Assembly: GCF_039645995.1 (NCBI RefSeq)
Contig: NZ_CP147920.1
Coordinates: 1,054,001 to 1,118,000, forward strand
Origin: Sulfurimonas sp. HSL3-1
GTDB lineage: Bacteria > Campylobacterota > Campylobacteria > Campylobacterales > Sulfurimonadaceae
Direction of reading: 5' to 3'
Length of the DNA stretch: 64,000 bases
The first letter of the stretch is position 1. Every line of letters starts with the position of its first letter. A model generated the notes under the pieces. That model did no database searches, was not told the origin of the DNA, and saw only the letters and a list, made by a program, of their open reading frames with translations. The position numbers and the translations under genes were made by a program. This document shows, piece after piece, positions 24,512 through 35,930 of the stretch.

Positions 24512-25171
24512 ATGAAAAAGCTCCAGGAACTCTACAAAGGCGACAAGCCCCGCGAAAAACTGCTGGCAAAAGGTCCCGCTACCCTTAAGGCGTATGAGCT
24601 GATGGCAGTGTTGCTCGGCAGCGGGGTTCCGGGCAAGGATGTGCTGCAGCTCTCCAAGGAGATCGTAGGGCTCTTTGATGCCTCTTTCGAATCCCTGACG
24701 CTCGATGACCTTACTTCCATCCATGGCATGGGCGAGGCAAAAGCCGCGCAGATCCTCGCCGCCGTCGAGCTCTCCCGGCGTTATCTCATCAAGCAGCATG
24801 TCAAAATTACCTCAGCTGCGGATGTCTACGAACTGCTACGCGAATACGGGGCCAAAAAGCAGGAGTATTTCATTGCCCTGGCTCTGGATGGAGCCTCGCA
24901 CCTTATCGAGAAGCGCGTCGTCTCCATCGGGACCCTCAACCAGTCCCTCGTGCACCCCCGTGAAGTCTTTGCCGATGCCGTTGCGGACAGGGCGGCGGGG
25001 ATCATCGTTGCCCACAACCACCCCGGCGGCCAGCTCGCCCCGAGCCGGGAGGACGCCGCGGTTACCCGGCGCCTCAGGGAGGCGGGGATATTGTTGGGGA
25101 TAGAGCTGCTCGATCATGTTATTTTGACCAAAGAGGGGTTCTTGAGTCTGCGGGAAGAGGGGATGTTGTGA
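24512..25171 (+). CDS. radC: RadC family JAMM/MPN+ protein
   Basis: A helix-hairpin-helix-like N-terminal region (SIHGMGEAKAAQILAAVEL) is followed by the JAMM metalloprotease-like domain with its zinc ligands in HNHPGGQLAPSRED. At 219 residues it is a full-length RadC. Despite its name the family has no proven role in repair, and members are frequent on mobile elements and defence islands; here it marks the edge of one. Codon use resembles the surrounding chromosome, so it may be ancestral. Confidence 0.92.
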   Translation: MKKLQELYKGDKPREKLLAKGPATLKAYELMAVLLGSGVPGKDVLQLSKEIVGLFDASFESLTLDDLTSIHGMGEAKAAQILAAVELSRRYLIKQHVKITSAADVYELLREYGAKKQEYFIALALDGASHLIEKRVVSIGTLNQSLVHPREVFADAVADRAAGIIVAHNHPGGQLAPSREDAAVTRRLREAGILLGIELLDHVILTKEGFLSLREEGML

Positions 25172-26038: not shown

Positions 26039-29008
26039 CTATTTTGGTGCTTTCTCCATATACTCTTCGCTTTCTTCCGCCGCCATCATGGCGTTGCCGG
26101 AAATAGCATTGGCATAATTCGAAGAATTAGCCGCTTTCTCCGTAGAAGAACCGAGACTCCCTCCGCCATCATAGAACTTCTCTATAAAGCCCATAATCTT
26201 ATCGAGTACTCTCGGAACGATTTTTTTGCGTTCAAGCAGTTTCGGTTTGACGTTGAGCGTATTGGCGATGTCGTCTTTTAGCGGAGGCCTGCCGTCGTAG
26301 AGGTAGGTGTCGATAACCCTGTTGACTTCTGCTTTGTTGAGATCCTCTTCTTCGCAAAGTTCGTCAAAAGCTTTGACCTGCTCTTCGTCCCAGAATTTCT
26401 CGAACGCATCATCGATGAGATCGTCGTCTTCGATGTGCATCAGGTGGTCGTCGATGAACTTCTCGATCAGCTCGCGCTTGCTGCGGAGGCCGGGCTGAGC
26501 GTTGATGATGCTGACGATGGTGTCACGCTGCTTCTGCTGCTCTTCTGTTTTGGCCTTTCTATATTTGGCCAGGAGTTTGAGGATATAGGCAACATTGATC
26601 TCGTCCTTGTGGATGAGCTCCAGCTCAAAGTCGATCTCCTGCAGGACAGAGACCTTTTCCGTTTCATTGCGGCTTTTGGTCCGCTCGTAAAGGTCGAGGT
26701 ATTTGGACTTGTAGTCTTCGAAGAGTTGCTCCGCCATGGAGAGGTTGTTCCAGTCGAAGTCGGCGAATCCCTCCAGAATATTCCTCACCCGCATCAGTTC
26801 CCGGAATGCCTTGATGAATTCCAGCTGTTTCTCTTCGTCGATGATAGCATCGACGCTGTTGATGCTCGGGGCGATAGCAATGAGCTTCGCGAAAGCCTCG
26901 TTGAACTTTTCGACATACTCTTCGTAAGGCCCCATGAGAATCTTGTCTTTTTTATCCAGATCAGAGAAGAGGGCAATGGCGTCGTCGGTCGCTGTTTTTA
27001 GGTTGCGGAAGCAGACAATATTCCCCTGCGATTTCGTCTCGCCCAGAATGCGGTTGGTGCGCGAGAAGGCCTGGATAAGGCCGTGGTACTTCAGGTTCTT
27101 GTCGACGTAGAGAGTGTTGAGGGACTTGGAGTCGAAGCCCGTCAGGAACATGTTGACGACGAGGAGGATGTCGACTTCACGCTGTTTCACCCGTTTGGAG
27201 ATGTCGTTGTAGTAGTTGTAGAAGCTCTGGCTGTCTTTGGTGCTGAACTTCGTGCCGAACATAGCGTTGTAGTCGTTGATGTACTCGTCGAGCTTCTCGC
27301 GGCTGTGCTTGTTGATGTGCTCTTCGTCCACTTTCGTCTCGTCGAAGTCGATCAGCCCGTTGGCGTCTTTGTCCTCCTCATTGGCGGTGTAGGAGAAGAT
27401 CGTAGCGATCTTGAGGTCGTGCTTTCTACTCTTAAAGGTCTCGTAGTACTTGGTGAGCATGTCCACGCTGCCGACGCACATCATCGCCGTGAACTCTTTG
27501 GAATGGGTTTTACGAGGATGGACAGAGAGGATGTAGTCGACGATCTTTTCGATTCTGTAGGGACTTTCCAGCACTTCCTGGGTGTTGATGGCCTCCACTT
27601 CGATATCGAGCTCGTTGGCGCTCTCTTTCTCCTTGTATCGCCCGACGTACTCCACGGAGAACTTCAGGACGTTGTCGTCGCTGATGGCATCGGTGATGAC
27701 GTAGCGGTGCAGGCGGTCGCCGAATAGGTCGGCGGTCGTGCGTTTGCCCAGCTTGTTCCCGACGGCGTTCTCTTCGAAAATAGGCGTCCCCGTAAAGCCG
27801 ATCATCTGCGCCTTTTCAAAGAAGCGGGTGATGTTGCGGTGGGTCTCACCGAACTGGCTGCGGTGGCACTCGTCGAAGATGAAGACGATGTGCTCATCGC
27901 GTAGCTGCTCCATCTCATTTAGGTAGCGCTTTTTGCTGATAGCGGTGTTGAGCTTTTGGATCGTCGTGATGATGAGGTCTGTCTGGACGCTTTGGCCTTT
28001 TTTGTCTTTGTAGCGACCTAGGAACTGGTCGACGAGGATCTTCGTATTGTCCGTACCGTCGACGCTTCCTTCGGCAAAGCTGTTGAACTCCTTGGTCGTC
28101 TGGAAGTCGAGGTCCTTGCGGTCGACGACGAAGACGACCTTGTGCACATGCGGGAGCTTGACGAGGATCTGCGAGGCCTTGAAGGAGGTGAGGGTCTTGC
28201 CCGAGCCAGTCGTGTGCCAGATGTAGCCGTTTTTATTCGTATTTTGCACCCGGTCGATGATTGATTCGACGGCATGGTACTGGTAGGGGCGCAGCACCAT
28301 CAAAATCTTCGGCACCTCCGCCAGGACGATGTACTTGCAGATCATCTTGGAGATGTGGCAGCGCTCCAGGAAGACCGAGGTGAAAGCTTCGAGGTTGTGG
28401 ATGTTTTTGTTTTCTTTGTCTGCCCAGAAGAAGGTTTGTTTGAAGGTTTGCTTTTTGTTGTTGGCGTAATACTTGGTGTTGACGCCGTTGGAGATGACGA
28501 AGAGCTGCACGTAGTTGAAGAGGGCGCTGTTGTAGCCGTAGGAGTGGCGCTGGTAGCGGTTGATCTGGTTGAAGGCCTCCTTGAGCTCCACACCCCGGCG
28601 TTTGAGCTCGATCTGCACGAGAGGCAGGCCGTTGATGAGCAGGGTGACATCGTAGCGGTTCTTATACTTACCTTCGATGGTTACCTGCTGGGTGACCTGG
28701 AAGAGGTTCTGGCACCAATGCTCCGAGTCCAGGAACTCGATGTAAGAAGTCGTGCCGTCGTCCTTGGGGAGGGCGAACTTGTCGCGGAGGATCTTCGCTT
28801 TTTCGAAGACGTTGCCCTTGTTAAGGTGATTAAGAATGCGGGCGAACTCGGTGTCGCTCAGCGTGGTCTTGTTGTGCTTTTCGAGCTGGTGTTTGAGGTT
28901 TGCTTTGAGGGCCGCTTCATCTGTGATGAGGACTTTTTCGTAGCCCAGTTCTTCGCTGAGCTGTTTGACCAGGTTGGCTTCGAGGACGGCTTCGGGTTGG
29001 GTGCTCAT
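26039..29008 (-). CDS. hsdR: Type I restriction enzyme, R (restriction and translocation) subunit
   Basis: HsdR pumps DNA past the methyltransferase and cuts it. The nuclease domain has D and ExK in RYDVTLL...PLVQIELKRRG (about residues 118-140). The SF2 motor has Walker A TTGSGKT, VVDRKDL, FDECHRSQFG, MIGFTGTP and the late motif FSRTNRILG. A helical C-terminal segment (about 888-947, EVNRVIDTYLYDGRPPLKDD... to FIEKFYDG) is the EcoR124-type C-terminal region that contacts the methyltransferase; a tail of about 40 small and acidic residues follows. The start overlaps the upstream HEPN/Abi-like gene by four bases (ATGA). Confidence 0.96.
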   Translation of the reverse strand: MSTQPEAVLEANLVKQLSEELGYEKVLITDEAALKANLKHQLEKHNKTTLSDTEFARILNHLNKGNVFEKAKILRDKFALPKDDGTTSYIEFLDSEHWCQNLFQVTQQVTIEGKYKNRYDVTLLINGLPLVQIELKRRGVELKEAFNQINRYQRHSYGYNSALFNYVQLFVISNGVNTKYYANNKKQTFKQTFFWADKENKNIHNLEAFTSVFLERCHISKMICKYIVLAEVPKILMVLRPYQYHAVESIIDRVQNTNKNGYIWHTTGSGKTLTSFKASQILVKLPHVHKVVFVVDRKDLDFQTTKEFNSFAEGSVDGTDNTKILVDQFLGRYKDKKGQSVQTDLIITTIQKLNTAISKKRYLNEMEQLRDEHIVFIFDECHRSQFGETHRNITRFFEKAQMIGFTGTPIFEENAVGNKLGKRTTADLFGDRLHRYVITDAISDDNVLKFSVEYVGRYKEKESANELDIEVEAINTQEVLESPYRIEKIVDYILSVHPRKTHSKEFTAMMCVGSVDMLTKYYETFKSRKHDLKIATIFSYTANEEDKDANGLIDFDETKVDEEHINKHSREKLDEYINDYNAMFGTKFSTKDSQSFYNYYNDISKRVKQREVDILLVVNMFLTGFDSKSLNTLYVDKNLKYHGLIQAFSRTNRILGETKSQGNIVCFRNLKTATDDAIALFSDLDKKDKILMGPYEEYVEKFNEAFAKLIAIAPSINSVDAIIDEEKQLEFIKAFRELMRVRNILEGFADFDWNNLSMAEQLFEDYKSKYLDLYERTKSRNETEKVSVLQEIDFELELIHKDEINVAYILKLLAKYRKAKTEEQQKQRDTIVSIINAQPGLRSKRELIEKFIDDHLMHIEDDDLIDDAFEKFWDEEQVKAFDELCEEEDLNKAEVNRVIDTYLYDGRPPLKDDIANTLNVKPKLLERKKIVPRVLDKIMGFIEKFYDGGGSLGSSTEKAANSSNYANAISGNAMMAAEESEEYMEKAPK

Positions 29009-29811
29009 TTATCCTCTTTACTCTCAGTATAGGTCTTATATAAAAAGATTGCCATAGAACCTGCCATATTAACTGCTAACTCACCATGGCGCTCCAGAGG
29101 TTTTACTTTTGTCTTAGTGCTTCCATGGGCATCCCCTAGTTTATTTCTCAAAGTTCCTAGACCATTAATAATGCCGCTGGCTCCACCAAGAATTTGTTTG
29201 AAAATCGCTTCTTGATGTTGTTCTGGAGCAAGATTTAAATGTTTTTGCACCTTTTTATATAATTCAGATAGATCCATATTGACATCATACTCTATGTCTT
29301 GCTCATCTAGAATATGTTTTAAAACACTTTCGATGAGAGTCCTTGCCATGGTAATAGCACCCTCGGGGTCATTACCTTTGCGTTCTATTGCTTTGATCCA
29401 ATATTCATGGATATGCTTTTCATCAAAAGTTATTGTTTCTTCTATTGGGGCAAGTGTTTGGAATTCTAATTTATCAAGTAGTGGTAAAAACTCATTTTTT
29501 ATAAATATTCTTCTTTCTTCGTAAGTCGGAAATTTATTTTTAATAAAATCCCAAAACTGTCTTACATCTCTATTTTGTTTTAGCCAGATTGGTAAATGCT
29601 GTTCAAAGCTTTTGTTTTGTACAAGCCGGTTTCTGAGTATTGTGTATATTTCGTCATCACGATTAGCACCTGCAGCCATATCACTAAATTTATCATGTGC
29701 AAAACTAACAAGCTCATAGCCAGTGATTGTATTAACTTTGTGAAGTAATGCTTCCCTTTGTTTTTGAATTAGTTGTTGAGTACTTTCAAAAAATTTTAGA
29801 AGATTTTCCAT
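29005..29811 (-). CDS. Abi-C/HEPN-like protein embedded in the hsd locus
   Basis: A 268-residue protein whose C-terminal half matches the abortive-infection C-terminal (Abi_C) pattern: GNDPEGAITMARTLIESVLKHIL, a helix pair, then LGTLRNKLGDAHGS. R222-N-x5-H229 fits the Rx4-6H catalytic motif of HEPN ribonucleases. The N-terminal half is helical and unknown. The open frame extends upstream to 29952, but those codons lie in the hsdR/hsdS scar; ATG 29811 follows the scar. It is low in GC. A defence role is inferred from family and position directly before hsdR. Confidence 0.7.
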   Translation of the reverse strand: MENLLKFFESTQQLIQKQREALLHKVNTITGYELVSFAHDKFSDMAAGANRDDEIYTILRNRLVQNKSFEQHLPIWLKQNRDVRQFWDFIKNKFPTYEERRIFIKNEFLPLLDKLEFQTLAPIEETITFDEKHIHEYWIKAIERKGNDPEGAITMARTLIESVLKHILDEQDIEYDVNMDLSELYKKVQKHLNLAPEQHQEAIFKQILGGASGIINGLGTLRNKLGDAHGSTKTKVKPLERHGELAVNMAGSMAIFLYKTYTESKEDK

Positions 29812-29819
29812 GTTGCACC

Positions 29820-29891
29820 TCACACAAGCATCTGCTGGAGCAGTCTTTTTTTGGATTGATTGACGAGGCTGGCTTCGGGTTGAACACTCAT
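29820..29891 (-). pseudogene. Scar 1: first codons of a lost hsdR fused to the last codons of a lost hsdS
   Basis: A 23-codon frame begins MSVQPEASLVNQ, close to the start of the intact HsdR (MSTQPEA...NLVKQ), and ends KKRLLQQMLV-stop, close to the end of the intact HsdS (KKALLQQMFI-stop). DNA identity is partial, with silent differences, so the parts came from other hsd alleles. It lies in the spacer between the PLD and Abi-like genes. Confidence 0.7.
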
Positions 29892-29909
29892 GTTTTTCGA
29901 GCTCTAATC

Positions 29910-31091
29910 TTAATAGGTAATGATATCCAGCATTGCGGCCCGTACCTTCCAAACCTTTCGTTCTTCATCACTAGAAGGTTCCAAGCTTTTATACCAAGGA
30001 GTATCATGTATATTCACAATAACCTCGTCCCAATATCTTTCATAATCATGTTGTTTGAGCTCATCCATATTAAAATCTCTATAAACAGGATAGGTATTAT
30101 TCTTTGTTACACAATAAAAAATGTCAGGTCTTTTCATCGCTAATAGTCTACTCAAGCTTTTTACCCCAAATCCGTAAGGCACGTTTGATTGGACAAAATT
30201 AACAAACTTCATGTACATTTCTTTAGAAACCTCGCCTTCTAAAGGAATCGCATCTAATGCTTTTGAAAATTCGTCAGCTGATTCTATGATTTGCTTTTTA
30301 AAATAGGGAGAGACCATGTGACCGAAATACATCCAATTAACGTCATGCTCTCCATAGTTAATGGTGCCGGCAATTTGTCTTACGATGTCATCTGGCATTT
30401 CACTCAAACTGCTATATTTTTTAAAATACTCTTGTACATGTTCTAGTAATTTCAAACGTTCTTCCAGTGAATCGTCTAAAGCATGTTTTGCTTTGTCAAA
30501 AAAATTTTTCCAACTTAATAAGTTAATTGGAGTTTCAGTCATTAATTGTTGAGCATTTTCATTGGACTTATCTACATTGTTTCTATTATTTTCTTGTGCA
30601 TTATAGTCTTTCAAATATATTTGATATTTTTCGTGGGTCATCCGATAAGCAAGTGAAAAGTACTTGTTGATTTCATCTAAAATATTATCGATGAATGTCT
30701 TGGTGTCAGCATCTTGACTATTTAGATGAACCATCATCTCAATATTATTTGCAAGCCCTCCACGTGTGAAGTTTGCGCTGCCTATTAGACACTCCCAATC
30801 TGATTTAGAGTTCATAAACAAATAAATCTTAGGATGAAAAATAACACCTTTAGTACTAAACATATATTTGACGCTATTTACATTCAAGAAAGTTTCTATG
30901 AACTCAGGTGAAGTGTTGTAACCGGATACACCGACTATCATCATAGAGATTTTTTTTGAATAATTTAAAAGAGCTTGGGAAGAATCCGAACCTAAAGTAG
31001 CCCATGCGGTGGCGATATAAATCTCTTGATATTTTTTTATTAATGAGGTCATTTTTTTATCAATCTTCTTCGCATCACTGATAATATTCAT
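29910..31091 (-). CDS. Phospholipase D-like nuclease in the hsd locus
   Basis: The N-terminal half carries one HKD motif: IFHPKIYLF, then about 12 residues later CLIGSANFTRGG. This arrangement is typical of PLD-type nucleases (Nuc, BfiI and DISARM DrmC families). The C-terminal half is helical and contains YGFGVKSLSRLLAMKRPDIF, like a segment found in some restriction-associated proteins, but I cannot name the domain. With one HKD motif the enzyme would have to work as a dimer. GC content is well below the chromosome, which suggests transfer. AAGGAAGATC precedes the ATG. Confidence 0.8.
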   Translation of the reverse strand: MNIISDAKKIDKKMTSLIKKYQEIYIATAWATLGSDSSQALLNYSKKISMMIVGVSGYNTSPEFIETFLNVNSVKYMFSTKGVIFHPKIYLFMNSKSDWECLIGSANFTRGGLANNIEMMVHLNSQDADTKTFIDNILDEINKYFSLAYRMTHEKYQIYLKDYNAQENNRNNVDKSNENAQQLMTETPINLLSWKNFFDKAKHALDDSLEERLKLLEHVQEYFKKYSSLSEMPDDIVRQIAGTINYGEHDVNWMYFGHMVSPYFKKQIIESADEFSKALDAIPLEGEVSKEMYMKFVNFVQSNVPYGFGVKSLSRLLAMKRPDIFYCVTKNNTYPVYRDFNMDELKQHDYERYWDEVIVNIHDTPWYKSLEPSSDEERKVWKVRAAMLDIITY

Positions 31092-31114: not shown

Positions 31115-31191
31115 TTACACAAACATCTGCTGAAGCAGTCCTTTTCCGAATTGCTTGTTTTTATCAGTAAGTGTTGATGCTCGGTACTCAT
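31115..31191 (-). pseudogene. Scar 2: lost hsdR start joined to an hsdS tail
   Basis: An ATG overlaps the stop of the upstream gene as ATGA, exactly as the real hsdR start does at 29005-29008, and opens MSTEHQHLLIK. The sequence then passes, in another frame, into TDKNKQFGKGLLQQMFV-stop, an HsdS C terminus. It fills the spacer between the HEPN-like gene and the PLD gene. Confidence 0.65.
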
Positions 31192-32201
31192 TCTTCATCT
31201 TTGGCAATGTATTGTTTCACAAATGCAAGTAGTGCCTTCGTGACTCTTTCTACTGCTTCACGTCTCTGTAATAACTTAGGCCTATGTTTCATAGTGTCTA
31301 CTATCGCATCGGGTAGAGGAACACGATGATCAAATTGATATGTCTCAACAATTTTTAGAAGCTCGTTAATATAAAGATTTTCATCCTGACAAAGTGTCGT
31401 TATTGCTTCTTCACTACCTTCTAAGCTTAATAGGTCTTTGTATCGCTCTTCAATTGTGTCACTAATATCGCGTTCTTCTTTTATTGGTTCAGCATCTTCC
31501 TTTTTATAGACTTGCTCTGTCATTTCTTCTAGTGGCTCAATCTCTTCTTCTGAGACTATTTCTGGCTCAATCTTTTCTTGATCAAGGAGATAGTCTTGAA
31601 GTTGTTCTTCGTAGGATGTGTAGTCTTGTTCATATAGCGCTTTGCTGTATTTTACATAACCACCTAGTGGGAATGAATCATCTAAAGAGCCGTTAAAGTT
31701 AGGATTTTCTTCATAGGAAATTTGCTCGATTCTCGTTATTTCTAAAGCAAAAAAATGCTTAAGCATATAGACAATGACCACTCCAGTAAATTCTTCTATA
31801 AATTTTGCAAATCCTTTAGAGCTACACAAAACTTTAGGAACTGGCTTGCCATGCGCAATATCACCTCTATGCGTACGAATTTCACCTAGCAAATGAATGG
31901 GGTGTCTAAAGTGATAAATAAACTCTGCTTCAAATTCATCACTTAGTTCGCCAAGTTTGTTCACAGTAGTGCTAAACAGTTTTTGAAATGGCCATTCTCT
32001 CATATCTTTCTCAGTAAGAGAATTGTCTAGTCTCAATAAAATCGTTTTAGAGATACCTTCGATTAATGCTTTGCAAGCTTCAATAGCAATATCAGGATGT
32101 GGAGTAAGATTTGTTTCCACTTTTTCTATGAGAAGTTCGTAGTAGCTAAACTCTCCATATTTTTCTGAGTTTTCAGCGATAAGTGTTCTTACGGAATCCA
32201 T
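31188..32201 (-). CDS. HEPN-like protein with an HsdR-like C-terminal docking segment
   Basis: The N-terminal 150 residues repeat the Abi-C pattern (HPDIAIEACKALIEGISKTIL ... LGEIRTHRGDIAHGKP); R109 or R112 with H117 fit the HEPN Rx4-7H motif. An acidic linker (about 190-260) follows. Residues about 277-330 (ELLKIVETYQFDHRVPLPDA... to FVKQYI) align without gaps to HsdR of this locus: 19 of 53 positions are identical by eye, including TY.xD.R.PL.D.I..T and PKLL.R. That HsdR segment contacts the methyltransferase in type I enzymes, so this protein may bind the M-S complex. It lies ten bases after hsdS. Confidence 0.7.
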   Translation of the reverse strand: MDSVRTLIAENSEKYGEFSYYELLIEKVETNLTPHPDIAIEACKALIEGISKTILLRLDNSLTEKDMREWPFQKLFSTTVNKLGELSDEFEAEFIYHFRHPIHLLGEIRTHRGDIAHGKPVPKVLCSSKGFAKFIEEFTGVVIVYMLKHFFALEITRIEQISYEENPNFNGSLDDSFPLGGYVKYSKALYEQDYTSYEEQLQDYLLDQEKIEPEIVSEEEIEPLEEMTEQVYKKEDAEPIKEERDISDTIEERYKDLLSLEGSEEAITTLCQDENLYINELLKIVETYQFDHRVPLPDAIVDTMKHRPKLLQRREAVERVTKALLAFVKQYIAKDEE

Positions 32202-32211
32202 TAGTGCTCTT

Positions 32212-33507
32212 TTATATAAACATCTGTTGTAGTAGTGCTTTTTTAAATTGCTTGGCGTTTTGCAGCTCTTTGGAAACGAGGTCTATCTTTGTGTCGATGG
32301 CGGAGAGAAAATCGGCTATCTTGGTTTGTTCTTCTTTTGAAGGAAGTAAAAACTTCACGTTTGACAAATTGTTTTTCGAGATTCCTAATACCGATATACC
32401 CGTTGCCGATTTCATAATCTGATTTCTAATATTGTTTGTCTGCATCAGATAGCTGGCAAACCCAAGTGCCATTACATCATTTTTGTCCCTGGCAATGTAT
32501 GTATGCAAACCCGCTAAAAGCTTTTCATTCTGCAAATCTATCAACTCAATTGTTTTACCAATATCTTTGTAGTCTTCAGAGGCGTCCGCAATAACCAAAT
32601 CTTTCACTTGACAATACTGTTCATCTTTTATCTTACTGATTTCTATATCGTCGTTGAGGAAGGGTACGTTTTCTTTGTTTATGTGGAAATTAGAACGATA
32701 TTTTGTATGGATGTCCCCATAATGAATGTTTTTGACCCTTCCTTGTACATCATTCATCAGAGCTCTTGAAAAGCTGTTCGTGTTGATGAAAGAGTAAATC
32801 TCTCCAAATAGCTTCTCTTTCCATTCCGGAAACTCACTCTTGTCATCCGCTCTGAAGCGAATCTCCTGCGAGAAGATTTTTTGCATCCCCCCTTTTTTGT
32901 ACTGCTCAAGCAGCTCCTGTTTTTTAGTGAGCTTTTCGATTTTGGTATCGACGGCGTTGAGGAAAGAGGCGATTTTTTGTTGTTCAGGTTTCGAAGGATA
33001 GTGTAAAACAAACTTTTCAACTATTGTATTATTGAAACTTTGTTGCTTCGTACCTTGTGCATACTTGTAATAAAGGGGTATGCCATATTTTAGATACCAA
33101 TAAAACAAAAACTTAGTATGTATTTCGTCTGTTTCATAAAATGCCATACATGACTGATTTGTCGTAGCTGGAATATCATTGATTGCACATTTACCTCGTG
33201 TACCAGGAGCTTCTAATCCTGTAATCGCAATAAAAAATGTACCCACTGGGTAAAGGCGTAAATTTGTATCTTTGATTGCTTGATCAGAGATTTTTTCAAT
33301 TGTGTCATTAATATGACCAAAATTTAATTCACCACTAGTTATCCAAAGATTGTTTCCTTGAAAATAGTCTTTAACAAGTCTGCTGGGAGTCGATCCAGTT
33401 TTCAGGTTTGTATATAACTCTCCAATGAAATTTTCATGCCATTCATCACTAAACTCAGGAAACCGTAACTTCGGAACTTTGCTTACCGCAGTCATGGTAA
33501 CACTCAA
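32212..33507 (-). CDS. hsdS: Type I restriction-modification specificity subunit
   Basis: HsdS reads the two halves of the target. The protein shows two target-recognition domains, each followed by a conserved helix: PSKPEQQKIASFLNAVDTKI and PSKEEQTKIADFLSAIDTKI, and it ends KQFKKALLQQMFI. The near-identical helices are the internal repeat of the family and allow exchange of half sites. GC is low, as usual for HsdS, which is under diversifying exchange. The start overlaps the end of hsdM by four bases (ATGA). Confidence 0.95.
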   Translation of the reverse strand: MSVTMTAVSKVPKLRFPEFSDEWHENFIGELYTNLKTGSTPSRLVKDYFQGNNLWITSGELNFGHINDTIEKISDQAIKDTNLRLYPVGTFFIAITGLEAPGTRGKCAINDIPATTNQSCMAFYETDEIHTKFLFYWYLKYGIPLYYKYAQGTKQQSFNNTIVEKFVLHYPSKPEQQKIASFLNAVDTKIEKLTKKQELLEQYKKGGMQKIFSQEIRFRADDKSEFPEWKEKLFGEIYSFINTNSFSRALMNDVQGRVKNIHYGDIHTKYRSNFHINKENVPFLNDDIEISKIKDEQYCQVKDLVIADASEDYKDIGKTIELIDLQNEKLLAGLHTYIARDKNDVMALGFASYLMQTNNIRNQIMKSATGISVLGISKNNLSNVKFLLPSKEEQTKIADFLSAIDTKIDLVSKELQNAKQFKKALLQQMFI

Positions 33508-35066
33508 AACGGCGTCGGGATGCCGAGTTCATTACAAAACTCGGCGATCTGAGCATCGTTGGTTTTTATATCAGCATCGAGGGCTATAAGCTCGCCGGTG
33601 ACTGCATCCAGATCGACCGGCTCCTCCTCCTCGAAAGTATCGACGTAGCGGGGAATATTGAGGTTGTAGTCATTCTCCTTGATCTCCTCCAGCGTGGCGA
33701 GGTGGGAGTACTTCTCGATCGCCTCCCGGTTGCGGTAGGTGTTAATAATTTTCTCGACGTTAGCGTTAGTAAGGATATTCTGGTTTTTCGCCTTTTCGAA
33801 CTCGTTAGAAGCGTCTATAAAGAGGACGTTGTCGCTGGCTTCGCGGCACTTCTTGAAGACCAGGATGCAGGTTGGAATAGAGGTCCCATAGAAAATATTG
33901 GCTGGCAGGCCGATGACGGCGTCAAGGTAGTTGCGGTCCTCGATGAGATAGCGGCGGATGTGCCCTTCTGCCGCGCCCCGGAAAAGCACGCCGTGGGGCA
34001 GGACGACCGCCATGATGCCATTGTCGTCGAGGTGCTAGATCATGTGCTGCACAAACGCGAAGTCCGCTTTGGAAGCGGGGGCGAGCTTGCCGTACTGGCT
34101 GAAACGGTCGTCGCTCATGTGCAGCGGGTTCGCCGACCAGTGGGCGGAGAAGGGGGGATTGGCCACGACTGCTTCAAAGCGCTTGTCCATATGTTGCGGA
34201 TGTTCGAGGGTGTCTTCCTGTTTGATATCGAACTTGCGGTAGTGGACGTCGTGCATGATCATGTTCATGCGGGCGAGGTTGTAAGTAGTACGGTTGAGCT
34301 CCTGCCCGTAGAAGTTTGAGACGTCGTCGACCTCCTTGGCGACGCGCAGCAGCAGCGAACCGGAACCGCAGGTCGGGTCGTAAACCGATTTGAGCTTCGT
34401 CTTGCCCGTAGTGACGATCTTGGCGAGGATCTTGGAAACTTGCTGCGGGGTATAGAACTCCCCCGCCTTCTTACCCGCGCCTGCTGCGAATTGGCCGATG
34501 AGGTACTCATAGGCATCGCCCAGAACGTCCCGGTCGTGGTTTTTCAACTCAAAGTTAATGGCGTCGAGGTGGGAGAGCACCTTGGCAATTAGGGTGTTCT
34601 TTGCTGCCTCGGTCCGGCCCAGTTTAGTACTGGTGAGGTCGAGGTCTTCGAAGAGATGGACGAAATCATCCTCGCTCTCGTGCCCCATCGTCGTCTGCTC
34701 AATATTGCGAAGAATCTGAGTCAGGTCTTCCAGGATAAAGTTGTCTTCTTCACCGTTACCGCGTTTTGCAATCTGGCTAAAAAGCTCAGTGGGTTTGAGG
34801 AAATATCCCAGTTTCTCGATAGCCTCTTCCTGGATGGCCTCAAGGTACTCTTTACCGTCTTCGGTTTTTTCGTCAATATCGAGATACTTTATGCCATCTT
34901 CGGCAAGGATCTCATCGGCATAATCTTCCATCTTTTCGGAAAGGTATTTGTAGAAGATAAACCCGAGAATGTAGTCGCGGAACTCATCCGCATCCATCTT
35001 CCCGCGAAGTGTATTTGCAATGTTCCAAAGCTGCTGTTCTAAAATCTTTTTGTTCTCTTCACCCAA
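33504..35066 (-). pseudogene. hsdM: Type I methyltransferase subunit gene interrupted by an in-frame amber codon
   Basis: The first 343 codons encode the helical N-terminal domain and most of the N6-adenine methyltransferase fold: AAGAGKKAGEFYTPQQVS, DPTCGSGSLLLRVAKE (AdoMet site, about 222-237) and VVANPPFSAHW (catalytic NPPF, about 303). After FAFVQHMI a TAG (34035-34037) interrupts the frame; it continues HLDDNGIMAVVLPHGVLFRGAAEGHIR to the end. Homologs have Tyr or another residue here, so one base change explains it. The TTG start at 35066 has AAGGA upstream. The internal ATG at 34013 lacks a ribosome binding site. Confidence 0.85.
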
Positions 35067-35237
35067 TGGGAGTGTCCTTTAAATGCTTAAAATCTTGTCA
35101 TCATATTATTGCAGTGTATGTTACTTTTAAGTGACTTAAATGATCAAAATCCATCCTTTACGTGAATGACAATATGCAACAAAAATCGCAAATAAAATAT
35201 TTGGATATAAAATTTAGGAAAATAAAAAGGAGTGTTT

Positions 35238-35930
35238 ATGAACGCGGAAGAAGAAAAAAAAGATAGTAAGCTGACACGTAAATGTTATATGCAAATGAAA
35301 AATGCCTATGAAAATAGTACTGTTTGGGCGCTAGCAAAAAAAGTACCGGGCCTAACAAAATGGACAGTGATTTACTTTATTAGTTTAATTGCCAGTGTAG
35401 CGTTCCCAATCATAAGTGCAGAATTCATTGATGAATCTTGGATTTATATCTTATCATTGATCATATTTACGATGTTGTTTCTTGCATGGATGATATGGAT
35501 TATTTATGGAAAGTCGATAATGTTGTTAGAAAAATATTATCACAACTCAAAAAAAATAAAGAAATATAGAAAGTATTGGCTTGGGTCAAGATATGAATAT
35601 TTTAGGGAAAGCTTGACCCCAAATGACAAATGTGACTTTGATGGGGTTCTAGCACTTCTTCAAGAAGAAAGAAAAAGAGTATATCCGTCTTTTTGGGATC
35701 ATAAATTATTTGCAACAAACTTGGCCTTTTTAATGGTTGGGTGGAGTGCGATAGCAGGTATGTTGGCAAATGGTGATGTCATCTCAAAAGCATTATTGGT
35801 ATATATCGTATTCGTATCTATCACAATTCTGCCATTAATTGGGATGCTAGTAATCACGCTACAAACTAAGGACAAAGAATTTGATGAACTTGAGAAGTTC
35901 ATATTCTGGTATGAATGCGAAAAGGGATGA
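35238..35930 (+). CDS. Low-GC four-helix membrane protein, function unknown
   Basis: A 230-residue protein with two helix pairs (about residues 39-58 and 64-86, then 160-178 and 185-208) separated by a charged cytoplasmic region rich in Lys, Arg and Tyr. It is AT-rich and codon-poor like the accessory hsd genes, and it stands divergently to hsdM, so it was probably acquired with the island. The layout with paired helices recalls membrane effectors of defence systems such as SLATT proteins, without a motif to prove it. AAGGAG (35228-35233) fixes the ATG at 35238. Confidence 0.65.
   Translation: MNAEEEKKDSKLTRKCYMQMKNAYENSTVWALAKKVPGLTKWTVIYFISLIASVAFPIISAEFIDESWIYILSLIIFTMLFLAWMIWIIYGKSIMLLEKYYHNSKKIKKYRKYWLGSRYEYFRESLTPNDKCDFDGVLALLQEERKRVYPSFWDHKLFATNLAFLMVGWSAIAGMLANGDVISKALLVYIVFVSITILPLIGMLVITLQTKDKEFDELEKFIFWYECEKG

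Follow-up and report, generated by a model that had tools for sequence, protein, structure and literature searches.

The hsd Locus and Its Accessory Genes

The analysed DNA, a stretch of 64,000 nucleotides from Sulfurimonas sp. HSL3-1 (contig NZ_CP147920.1, positions 1,054,001 to 1,118,000; hereafter the window, to which all coordinates refer), contains a type I restriction-modification (R-M) operon that runs on the minus strand in the order hsdM, hsdS, HEPN/tail gene, PLD gene, AbiJ-like gene and hsdR (M-S-X-PLD-AbiJ-R). The HEPN/tail gene encodes a 337-residue protein in which a predicted HEPN domain, an adaptor segment and an acidic linker precede a tail homologous to the C-terminus of HsdR; this open reading frame is real on the minus strand, and the plus strand at 31188-32201 is riddled with stops. 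The features of the locus are as follows.

33504..35066, minus strand: hsdM, N6 methylase, type IC-like (Pfam HsdM_N and N6_Mtase on both halves)
32212..33507, minus strand: hsdS specificity subunit, GC 0.37 (Pfam Methylase_S, 2.4e-26)
31188..32201, minus strand: HEPN + adaptor + HsdR-tail protein, 337 aa (start 10 bp behind hsdS)
31737..32201, minus strand: putative HEPN/Abi_C-type domain, aa 1-155, all-helical (Abi_C matches of relatives, model helices, Foldseek)
31848..31886, minus strand: HEPN motif GEIRTHRGDIAHG, aa 106-118 (R109, G113, H117 and G118 invariant in an 11-member alignment)
31581..31730, minus strand: adaptor segment, aa 158-207 (conserved family-wide; type YEDNPEFNExLD...YSKALFxQDxxAYxxxLxDY)
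31452..31574, minus strand: acidic disordered linker, aa 210-250 (pLDDT <50 at 210-251)
31209..31478, minus strand: HsdR-type C-terminal tail, aa 242-331 (homology to own HsdR and to the HsdR C-terminal domain profile)
31115..31153, minus strand: hsdS 3'-end relic, KQFGKGLLQQMFV followed by a stop (between the stop of the HEPN gene and the PLD gene)
29910..31091, minus strand: PLD-type nuclease-like gene with RE_NgoFVII N-terminal domain, 393 aa (Pfam PF09565, 4.9e-10; PLDc_2, 2e-6)
29820..29858, minus strand: weaker second hsdS 3'-end relic, QSKKRLLQQMLV followed by a stop (just upstream of the AbiJ-like gene)
29005..29811, minus strand: AbiJ-like HEPN gene, Abi_C (Pfam Abi_C, 5.5e-21; PADLOC AbiJ, 3.7e-24)
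26039..29008, minus strand: hsdR, EcoR124-type (Pfam HSDR_N, SWI2_SNF2 and EcoR124_C, PF12008, 1.3e-72)
26174..26431, minus strand: HsdR segment aa 860-945, relative of the tail (blastp, whole-genome search)

The hsdM gene is split into two open reading frames by an in-frame TAG (amber) stop at codon 344 (34035-34037, minus strand), despite which the HEPN-tail, PLD, AbiJ, hsdS and hsdR frames are all intact. The hsdM gene of the congener G304 is open at this codon and 92% identical over its length; in G395, the second genome with the tailed architecture, hsdM is a single frame of 518 aa and the operon is wholly intact. The AbiJ-like frame as called from TTG 29952 (29005-29952, minus strand) is probably overlong; the ATG at 29811, 8 bp behind an hsdS relic, is likely the better-fitting start. 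At the edge of the locus, a low-GC gene (0.34) on the plus strand (35232-35930) encodes a 232-aa protein that belongs to no family and has hydrophobic stretches visible by eye. A radC-like gene (24512-25171) lies near the hsd locus, as it does in four related loci (L031, L096, L097, and L103), and in the congener G191 a remnant of hsdR alone is left at the radC-side site; the radC-like neighbourhood is perhaps a preferred integration site of the hsd locus.

Homology and Origin of the HsdR-Type Tail

The tail (aa 242-331) aligned with aa 860-945 of the HsdR encoded in the same locus at 33% identity (blastp, E = 3e-13), with a Smith-Waterman score of 160, whereas 1000 shuffles reached 82 at most; in a search of the whole genome, a single 2.5-Mb contig, this HsdR was the sole other match to the protein (E = 5e-11). 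When the two known tails were compared by hhalign to 36 HsdR C-termini, the probability was 99.2 and the P-value 8.5e-20. The homology to the own-locus HsdR that the original prediction had proposed is borne out by the blastp, shuffle and hhalign results, and its PKLL.R block was found as described; the homologous stretch that it had placed at about residues 277-330 is real but too short, as it reaches back to residue ~242. A HEPN-type domain joined to a C-terminal HsdR segment inside a type I locus is supported. The original prediction named no strand for the gene, and it did not include the adaptor, the cassette structure or the interrupted hsdM.

A profile built from the tails and HsdR C-termini matched residues 938-1031 of EcoR124I HsdR, including 5j3n, a crystallised fusion of GFP with a C-terminal portion of HsdR that contains the segment equivalent to the tail. 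This structure presumably belongs to Grinkevich et al., who are said to have studied the HsdR C-terminal domain. By general agreement, this domain is in contact with the methyltransferase (PMC5248579; PMC2878639). Within the EcoR124_C region of HsdR (PF12008), the tail corresponds to the last ~90 residues; in contrast to EcoR124_C and HsdR, the tail protein lacks the nuclease, the motor and the upstream RSKRELIEKFI part of the C-terminal domain, and the PF12008 model itself reported no match on the 337-aa protein. The tail modelled on its own (pLDDT 65) had no HsdR among its Foldseek matches; this structure comparison neither confirms nor refutes the relationship, which is confirmed by sequence.

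Among 397 genomes of the phylum, the N-terminal domain and the tail co-occurred in one more, G395 (full-length identity 46%, E = 1.3e-79), so that the same architecture in other hsd loci, suggested as a check with the original prediction, turned up once more. The tailed architecture was found in these two Campylobacterota genomes only; the tail alone matched the C-termini of many HsdRs in the 397 genomes, and tail matches in short frames were identified as truncated pieces of HsdR. A search of the loci of nine relatives for other tailed cargo with an HMM of the HsdR C-terminal domain returned HsdR only; marginal matches outside hsd cargo (E = 0.01 and 0.0017) were taken as chance. On a Thauera plasmid (L046, 9001-9294), a tail-only match lies in a gap downstream of hsdS where no gene is annotated.

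When 38 C-termini were placed in a tree, both tails grouped in one clade (97/95) outside the HsdRs, on long branches that make its exact placement uncertain. Within the tail region, the tails share 38% identity with each other and 29% with the own-locus HsdR, and HsdRs share 55% among themselves. At the 21 positions with a conservation of 80% or more among HsdRs, the tails agree with the HsdR consensus in 13 and 12 cases, compared to roughly 24-36% elsewhere. A recent copy from the own-locus hsdR was rejected on the grounds of the shared clade, the higher identity between the tails (38% vs. 29%) and the GC content (0.37 vs. 0.52); the simplest reading of these data is that the tail was a single old acquisition, kept under continued selection.

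The Putative HEPN Domain

The 337-aa protein itself had no match among the Pfam, PADLOC (AbiJ included) or NCBIfam models. Its relatives matched the Abi_C family (PF14355) with E-values of 3.9e-9 (L050, 36.9 bits), 1.2e-7 (L048, 32.1 bits) and ~1e-6 (L026 and L027, 26-29 bits), and matched the PADLOC AbiJ profile weakly; with close relatives passing the curated Abi_C cut-off of 24 bits, the proposal of an Abi_C/HEPN-like N-terminal part holds up. In an alignment of 11 family members, R109, G113, H117 and G118 are invariant (11/11); of the residues named beforehand, R109 and H117 stand, but R112 is variable. The spacing of the motif can be read as R109-x7-H117, one residue beyond the textbook R-x4-6-H, or as R112-x4-H117. 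The residue that follows R109 is asparagine in most relatives and threonine in both tailed proteins, and for this reason catalysis by the tailed proteins is uncertain.

The AF2 model is all-helical with a mean pLDDT of 73 (HEPN helices mostly 72-91, tail helices 80-89, catalytic loop 111-119 below 50). The top-probability Foldseek matches of the HEPN model include the HEPN domains 2q00, 3o10 and 4nqf, all at E >1; a sequence search of the PDB with the HEPN family gave no match. Taken together, the N-terminal ~155 residues fall into an Abi_C/HEPN-type family and are predicted to cut RNA. This family has the motif region in common with Abi_C (PF14355) and AbiJ-type HEPNs; it differs from them by a conserved adaptor after the HEPN domain and by a constant position between hsdS and hsdR.

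Tail-less Relatives and the Adaptor Segment

Tail-less relatives of 208-259 aa occupy the same slot between hsdS and hsdR on Acinetobacter plasmids and on a Sinorhizobium megaplasmid (annotated as "abortive infection protein"), as well as in Ruegeria, Maribacter, another flavobacterial MAG, a Blastocatellia MAG and further genomes. Every full-length member whose surroundings were read follows hsdS and precedes hsdR, in most cases as the immediate neighbour; extra open reading frames separate the HEPN gene from hsdR in the loci L032 and L033, and some members stand beside a distant type of HsdR. This placement extends over at least four phyla (Pseudomonadota, Bacteroidota, Acidobacteriota, and Campylobacterota), and members of the standalone HEPN family were seen in roughly 1-2% of sampled genomes. 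The plasmid relatives (Acinetobacter, Sinorhizobium, possibly Picosynechococcus) are all tail-less; no relatives were found in the viral contigs and phages searched, and a BFVD search gave no match. Partial-coverage family matches at E ≤ 1e-3 in five genomes (G364, G492, G409, G106, and G357) were AbiJ-type genes like the one at 29005-29811 and do not belong to this family. Since tail-less relatives recur at the slot between hsdS and hsdR, the association of the HEPN family with type I systems is independent of the tail, and since most relatives are tail-less, the tail is unnecessary for the family. The tail is thus a local add-on that does not underlie the family's association with Hsd, which weakens the interpretation given with the original prediction.

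The segment that is conserved throughout the family is the adaptor of ~50 residues (aa 158-207) that follows the HEPN domain. In the genome G1020, the slot between hsdS and hsdR is occupied by an otherwise different protein of 334 aa (L088, 8445-9449, plus strand) that carries the adaptor at its N-terminus (HMM E = 7e-8 in the set of open reading frames; E = 2.4e-7 per genome with a profile that lacks the L088 protein); a HEPN-like motif, RNGFEH, is found downstream of the adaptor, the protein belongs to no Pfam family, and a search for further relatives of it found none. The possibility that the adaptor is another piece of HsdR was rejected (hhalign probability 4.5%, a mere 11-residue resemblance); it is also non-homologous to the tail. 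Since distinct HEPN-like proteins of this slot carry the segment at opposite ends, it is best read, on one example of such a transfer, as a portable segment that may dock proteins to Hsd.

Cargo Genes and hsdS Relics

The GC content of hsdS, the HEPN/tail gene, and the PLD and AbiJ genes is 0.33-0.37, as against 0.52-0.53 for hsdM and hsdR and 0.56 for the window. Besides true hsdS ends, the two relics were the sole matches in 613 kb of loci, and a reversed null gave none; as the relics precede the PLD and AbiJ genes, the start of each cargo gene lies 8-23 bp downstream of an hsdS 3' end. This arrangement suggests that the three cargo genes may have arrived serially by recombination, as units of an hsdS end plus cargo. 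The gene immediately after hsdS in G106 is AbiJ-like. An unrelated HTH_73 protein occupies the slot in the congener G304 (HsdM 92% and HsdR 95% identical), and the slots of related loci (L031, L096, and L098-L102) hold DUF4917, Fic/DOC and HTH_73 proteins and RhuM; given these varied contents, the module is exchangeable and dispensable for the R-M backbone.

A Possible Tethered RNase and Its Alternatives

We propose, with a probability of about 45%, that the 337-aa protein serves a type IC R-M operon as an accessory RNase effector, tethered to the M2S methyltransferase and acting by a logic like that of PrrC. The HEPN (Abi_C-type) domain would cut RNA as a dimer; the family-wide adaptor of ~50 residues would tie HEPN proteins to Hsd systems, and in this Campylobacterota lineage the gene has, in addition, gained the ~90 C-terminal residues of HsdR. 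This tail would occupy the HsdR site on M2S, or DNA beside that site, so that the RNase would be assembled with the restriction enzyme and might fire when restriction fails or when the engagement of HsdR and DNA changes; the outcome would be a halt of translation in the infected cell, which is PrrC logic with another anchor. A tethered effector gains support from the fact that the tail is intact in two distant genomes whose proteins are 46% identical. That the protein docks on M2S and acts as a guard RNase is plausible. The homologies, the invariant R109 and H117, the operon position, the recurrence and the single origin of the tail are observed, and we infer the RNase activity, the M2S binding and the trigger.

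The interrupted hsdM is awkward for the version of this proposal in which, as for PrrC, the Hsd complex keeps the toxin silent until anti-restriction releases it. If the stop is real, a normal M2S would not form, and a toxin silenced solely by M2S should be free; a stop in hsdM beside an intact HEPN gene is at odds with silencing by an intact M2S alone. Three readings follow: the stop is erroneous or bypassed, the RNase is activated (not released) by the complex, or the guard model is wrong here.

The intact HEPN gene beside an interrupted hsdM is in line with an independent abortive-infection RNase that senses phage alone, with the tail as a by-product of fusion or a DNA-binding module that does not dock on M2S. 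As the Hsd slot is a hot spot that collects unrelated genes (Fic, RhuM, DUF4917, PLD, and AbiJ), co-location alone need not mean co-function; the TgvAB genes embedded in a Vibrio cholerae type I locus defend without the restriction activity of HsdR (PMC11411939), and the homologous EcoR124 domain reportedly has a DNA-binding role as well. Against this stand the consistent position of the HEPN family behind hsdS in four phyla and the retention of conserved HsdR positions by the tail in two divergent loci, and we consider an independent RNase a minority possibility that deserves to be taken seriously. The interrupted hsdM, the two hsdS relics and the locus remnants at the same site in the congener G191 might also point to a decaying locus in which the protein is a leftover that has no present function; with the HEPN-tail, PLD, AbiJ, hsdS and hsdR frames intact, and a copy in the wholly intact operon of G395, decay appears quite improbable.

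In place of an effector, the protein could be a regulator or decoy of restriction: a tail on the HsdR site of M2S would limit the loading of HsdR (as in R1M2S1) and lessen self-restriction after acquisition of a new hsdS, and the HEPN fold would serve for dimerisation. The gene lies directly behind a newly acquired, low-GC hsdS, where self-restriction would endanger the cell, and it is established for EcoR124I that assembly-competent mutants of HsdR are trans-dominant (PMC5248579); yet the arginine and histidine of the HEPN motif are invariant in 11 of 11 family members, which speaks for catalysis, and the tail-less relatives could not work in this way, so that a decoy function seems unlikely. 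A chance resemblance or an annotation artefact, such as a frameshifted or chimeric frame, has nothing more in its favour than the low complexity of the linker; the hhalign P-value of 8.5e-20 and the shuffle test speak against it, the homologue of the same architecture in the independent genome G395 refutes it, and its likelihood is negligible.

Relation to Known Systems and Significance

The tethered RNase outlined here has precedents in PrrC, encoded inside EcoprrI, and in a general proposal that links HEPN proteins to R-M systems (PMC3710099; PMC3874165). Anantharaman et al. (2013) described HEPN genes in R-M loci, drew the analogy to PrrC and reported fusions to R-M helicases and nucleases (PMC3710099); a HEPN protein in an R-M locus as a second-line RNase is thus an existing proposal (PMC3710099). 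The HEPN/tail protein resembles these R-M-associated HEPNs in the linkage of HEPN to R-M subunits, which in that survey includes restriction endonuclease and helicase fusions and AbiJ solos in R-M operons (PMC3710099). The fusions of that survey join HEPN to catalytic modules, whereas the HEPN/tail protein has taken from HsdR no more than the C-terminal assembly/DNA-binding segment, and a full HsdR is still encoded. PrrC, like the protein described here, is a HEPN RNase encoded within a type IC hsd operon (EcoprrI) and is proposed to act as a second line when restriction is blocked. It belongs to a different HEPN family and fuses an N-terminal ABC-type ATPase to HEPN; the 337-aa protein has no ABC ATPase (no Pfam match), its order is HEPN-adaptor-linker-tail, and its anchor, if any, would be the HsdR-derived tail together with the small adaptor. 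TgvAB of V. cholerae are likewise additional defence genes that lie within an hsd operon; unlike the HEPN/tail protein, they constitute a type IV restriction system that acts without HsdR activity, and no HsdR-derived segment has been reported for them (PMC11411939). The searchable literature, outside of which lie most subscription papers and preprints, contained no HEPN joined to an HsdR C-terminus only, no description of the present hsdS-hsdR slot family as such, and none of the adaptor. HEPN genes in R-M loci are known; their fusion to an HsdR tail appears to be undescribed in this literature, and the novelty originally attributed to the fusion met with no contrary report there.

To our knowledge, PrrC is nearly the only accessory toxin whose coupling to a restriction enzyme is understood. 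A HEPN protein with an assembly segment of HsdR would provide a direct and testable physical link between toxin and restriction, and the standalone family with its adaptor would amount to a more general link between HEPN proteins and type I enzymes. A broader and doubtful extension is that type I enzymes have an exchangeable "third partner": HEPN RNases would dock on M2S through a portable adaptor, in one lineage also through a copied HsdR docking domain, the hybrid enzyme would monitor the seating of HsdR, and genes would be added serially as cassettes through recombination at the conserved 3' end of hsdS. The relics of hsdS 3' ends at this locus suggest a simple route by which cargo may build up in type I operons.
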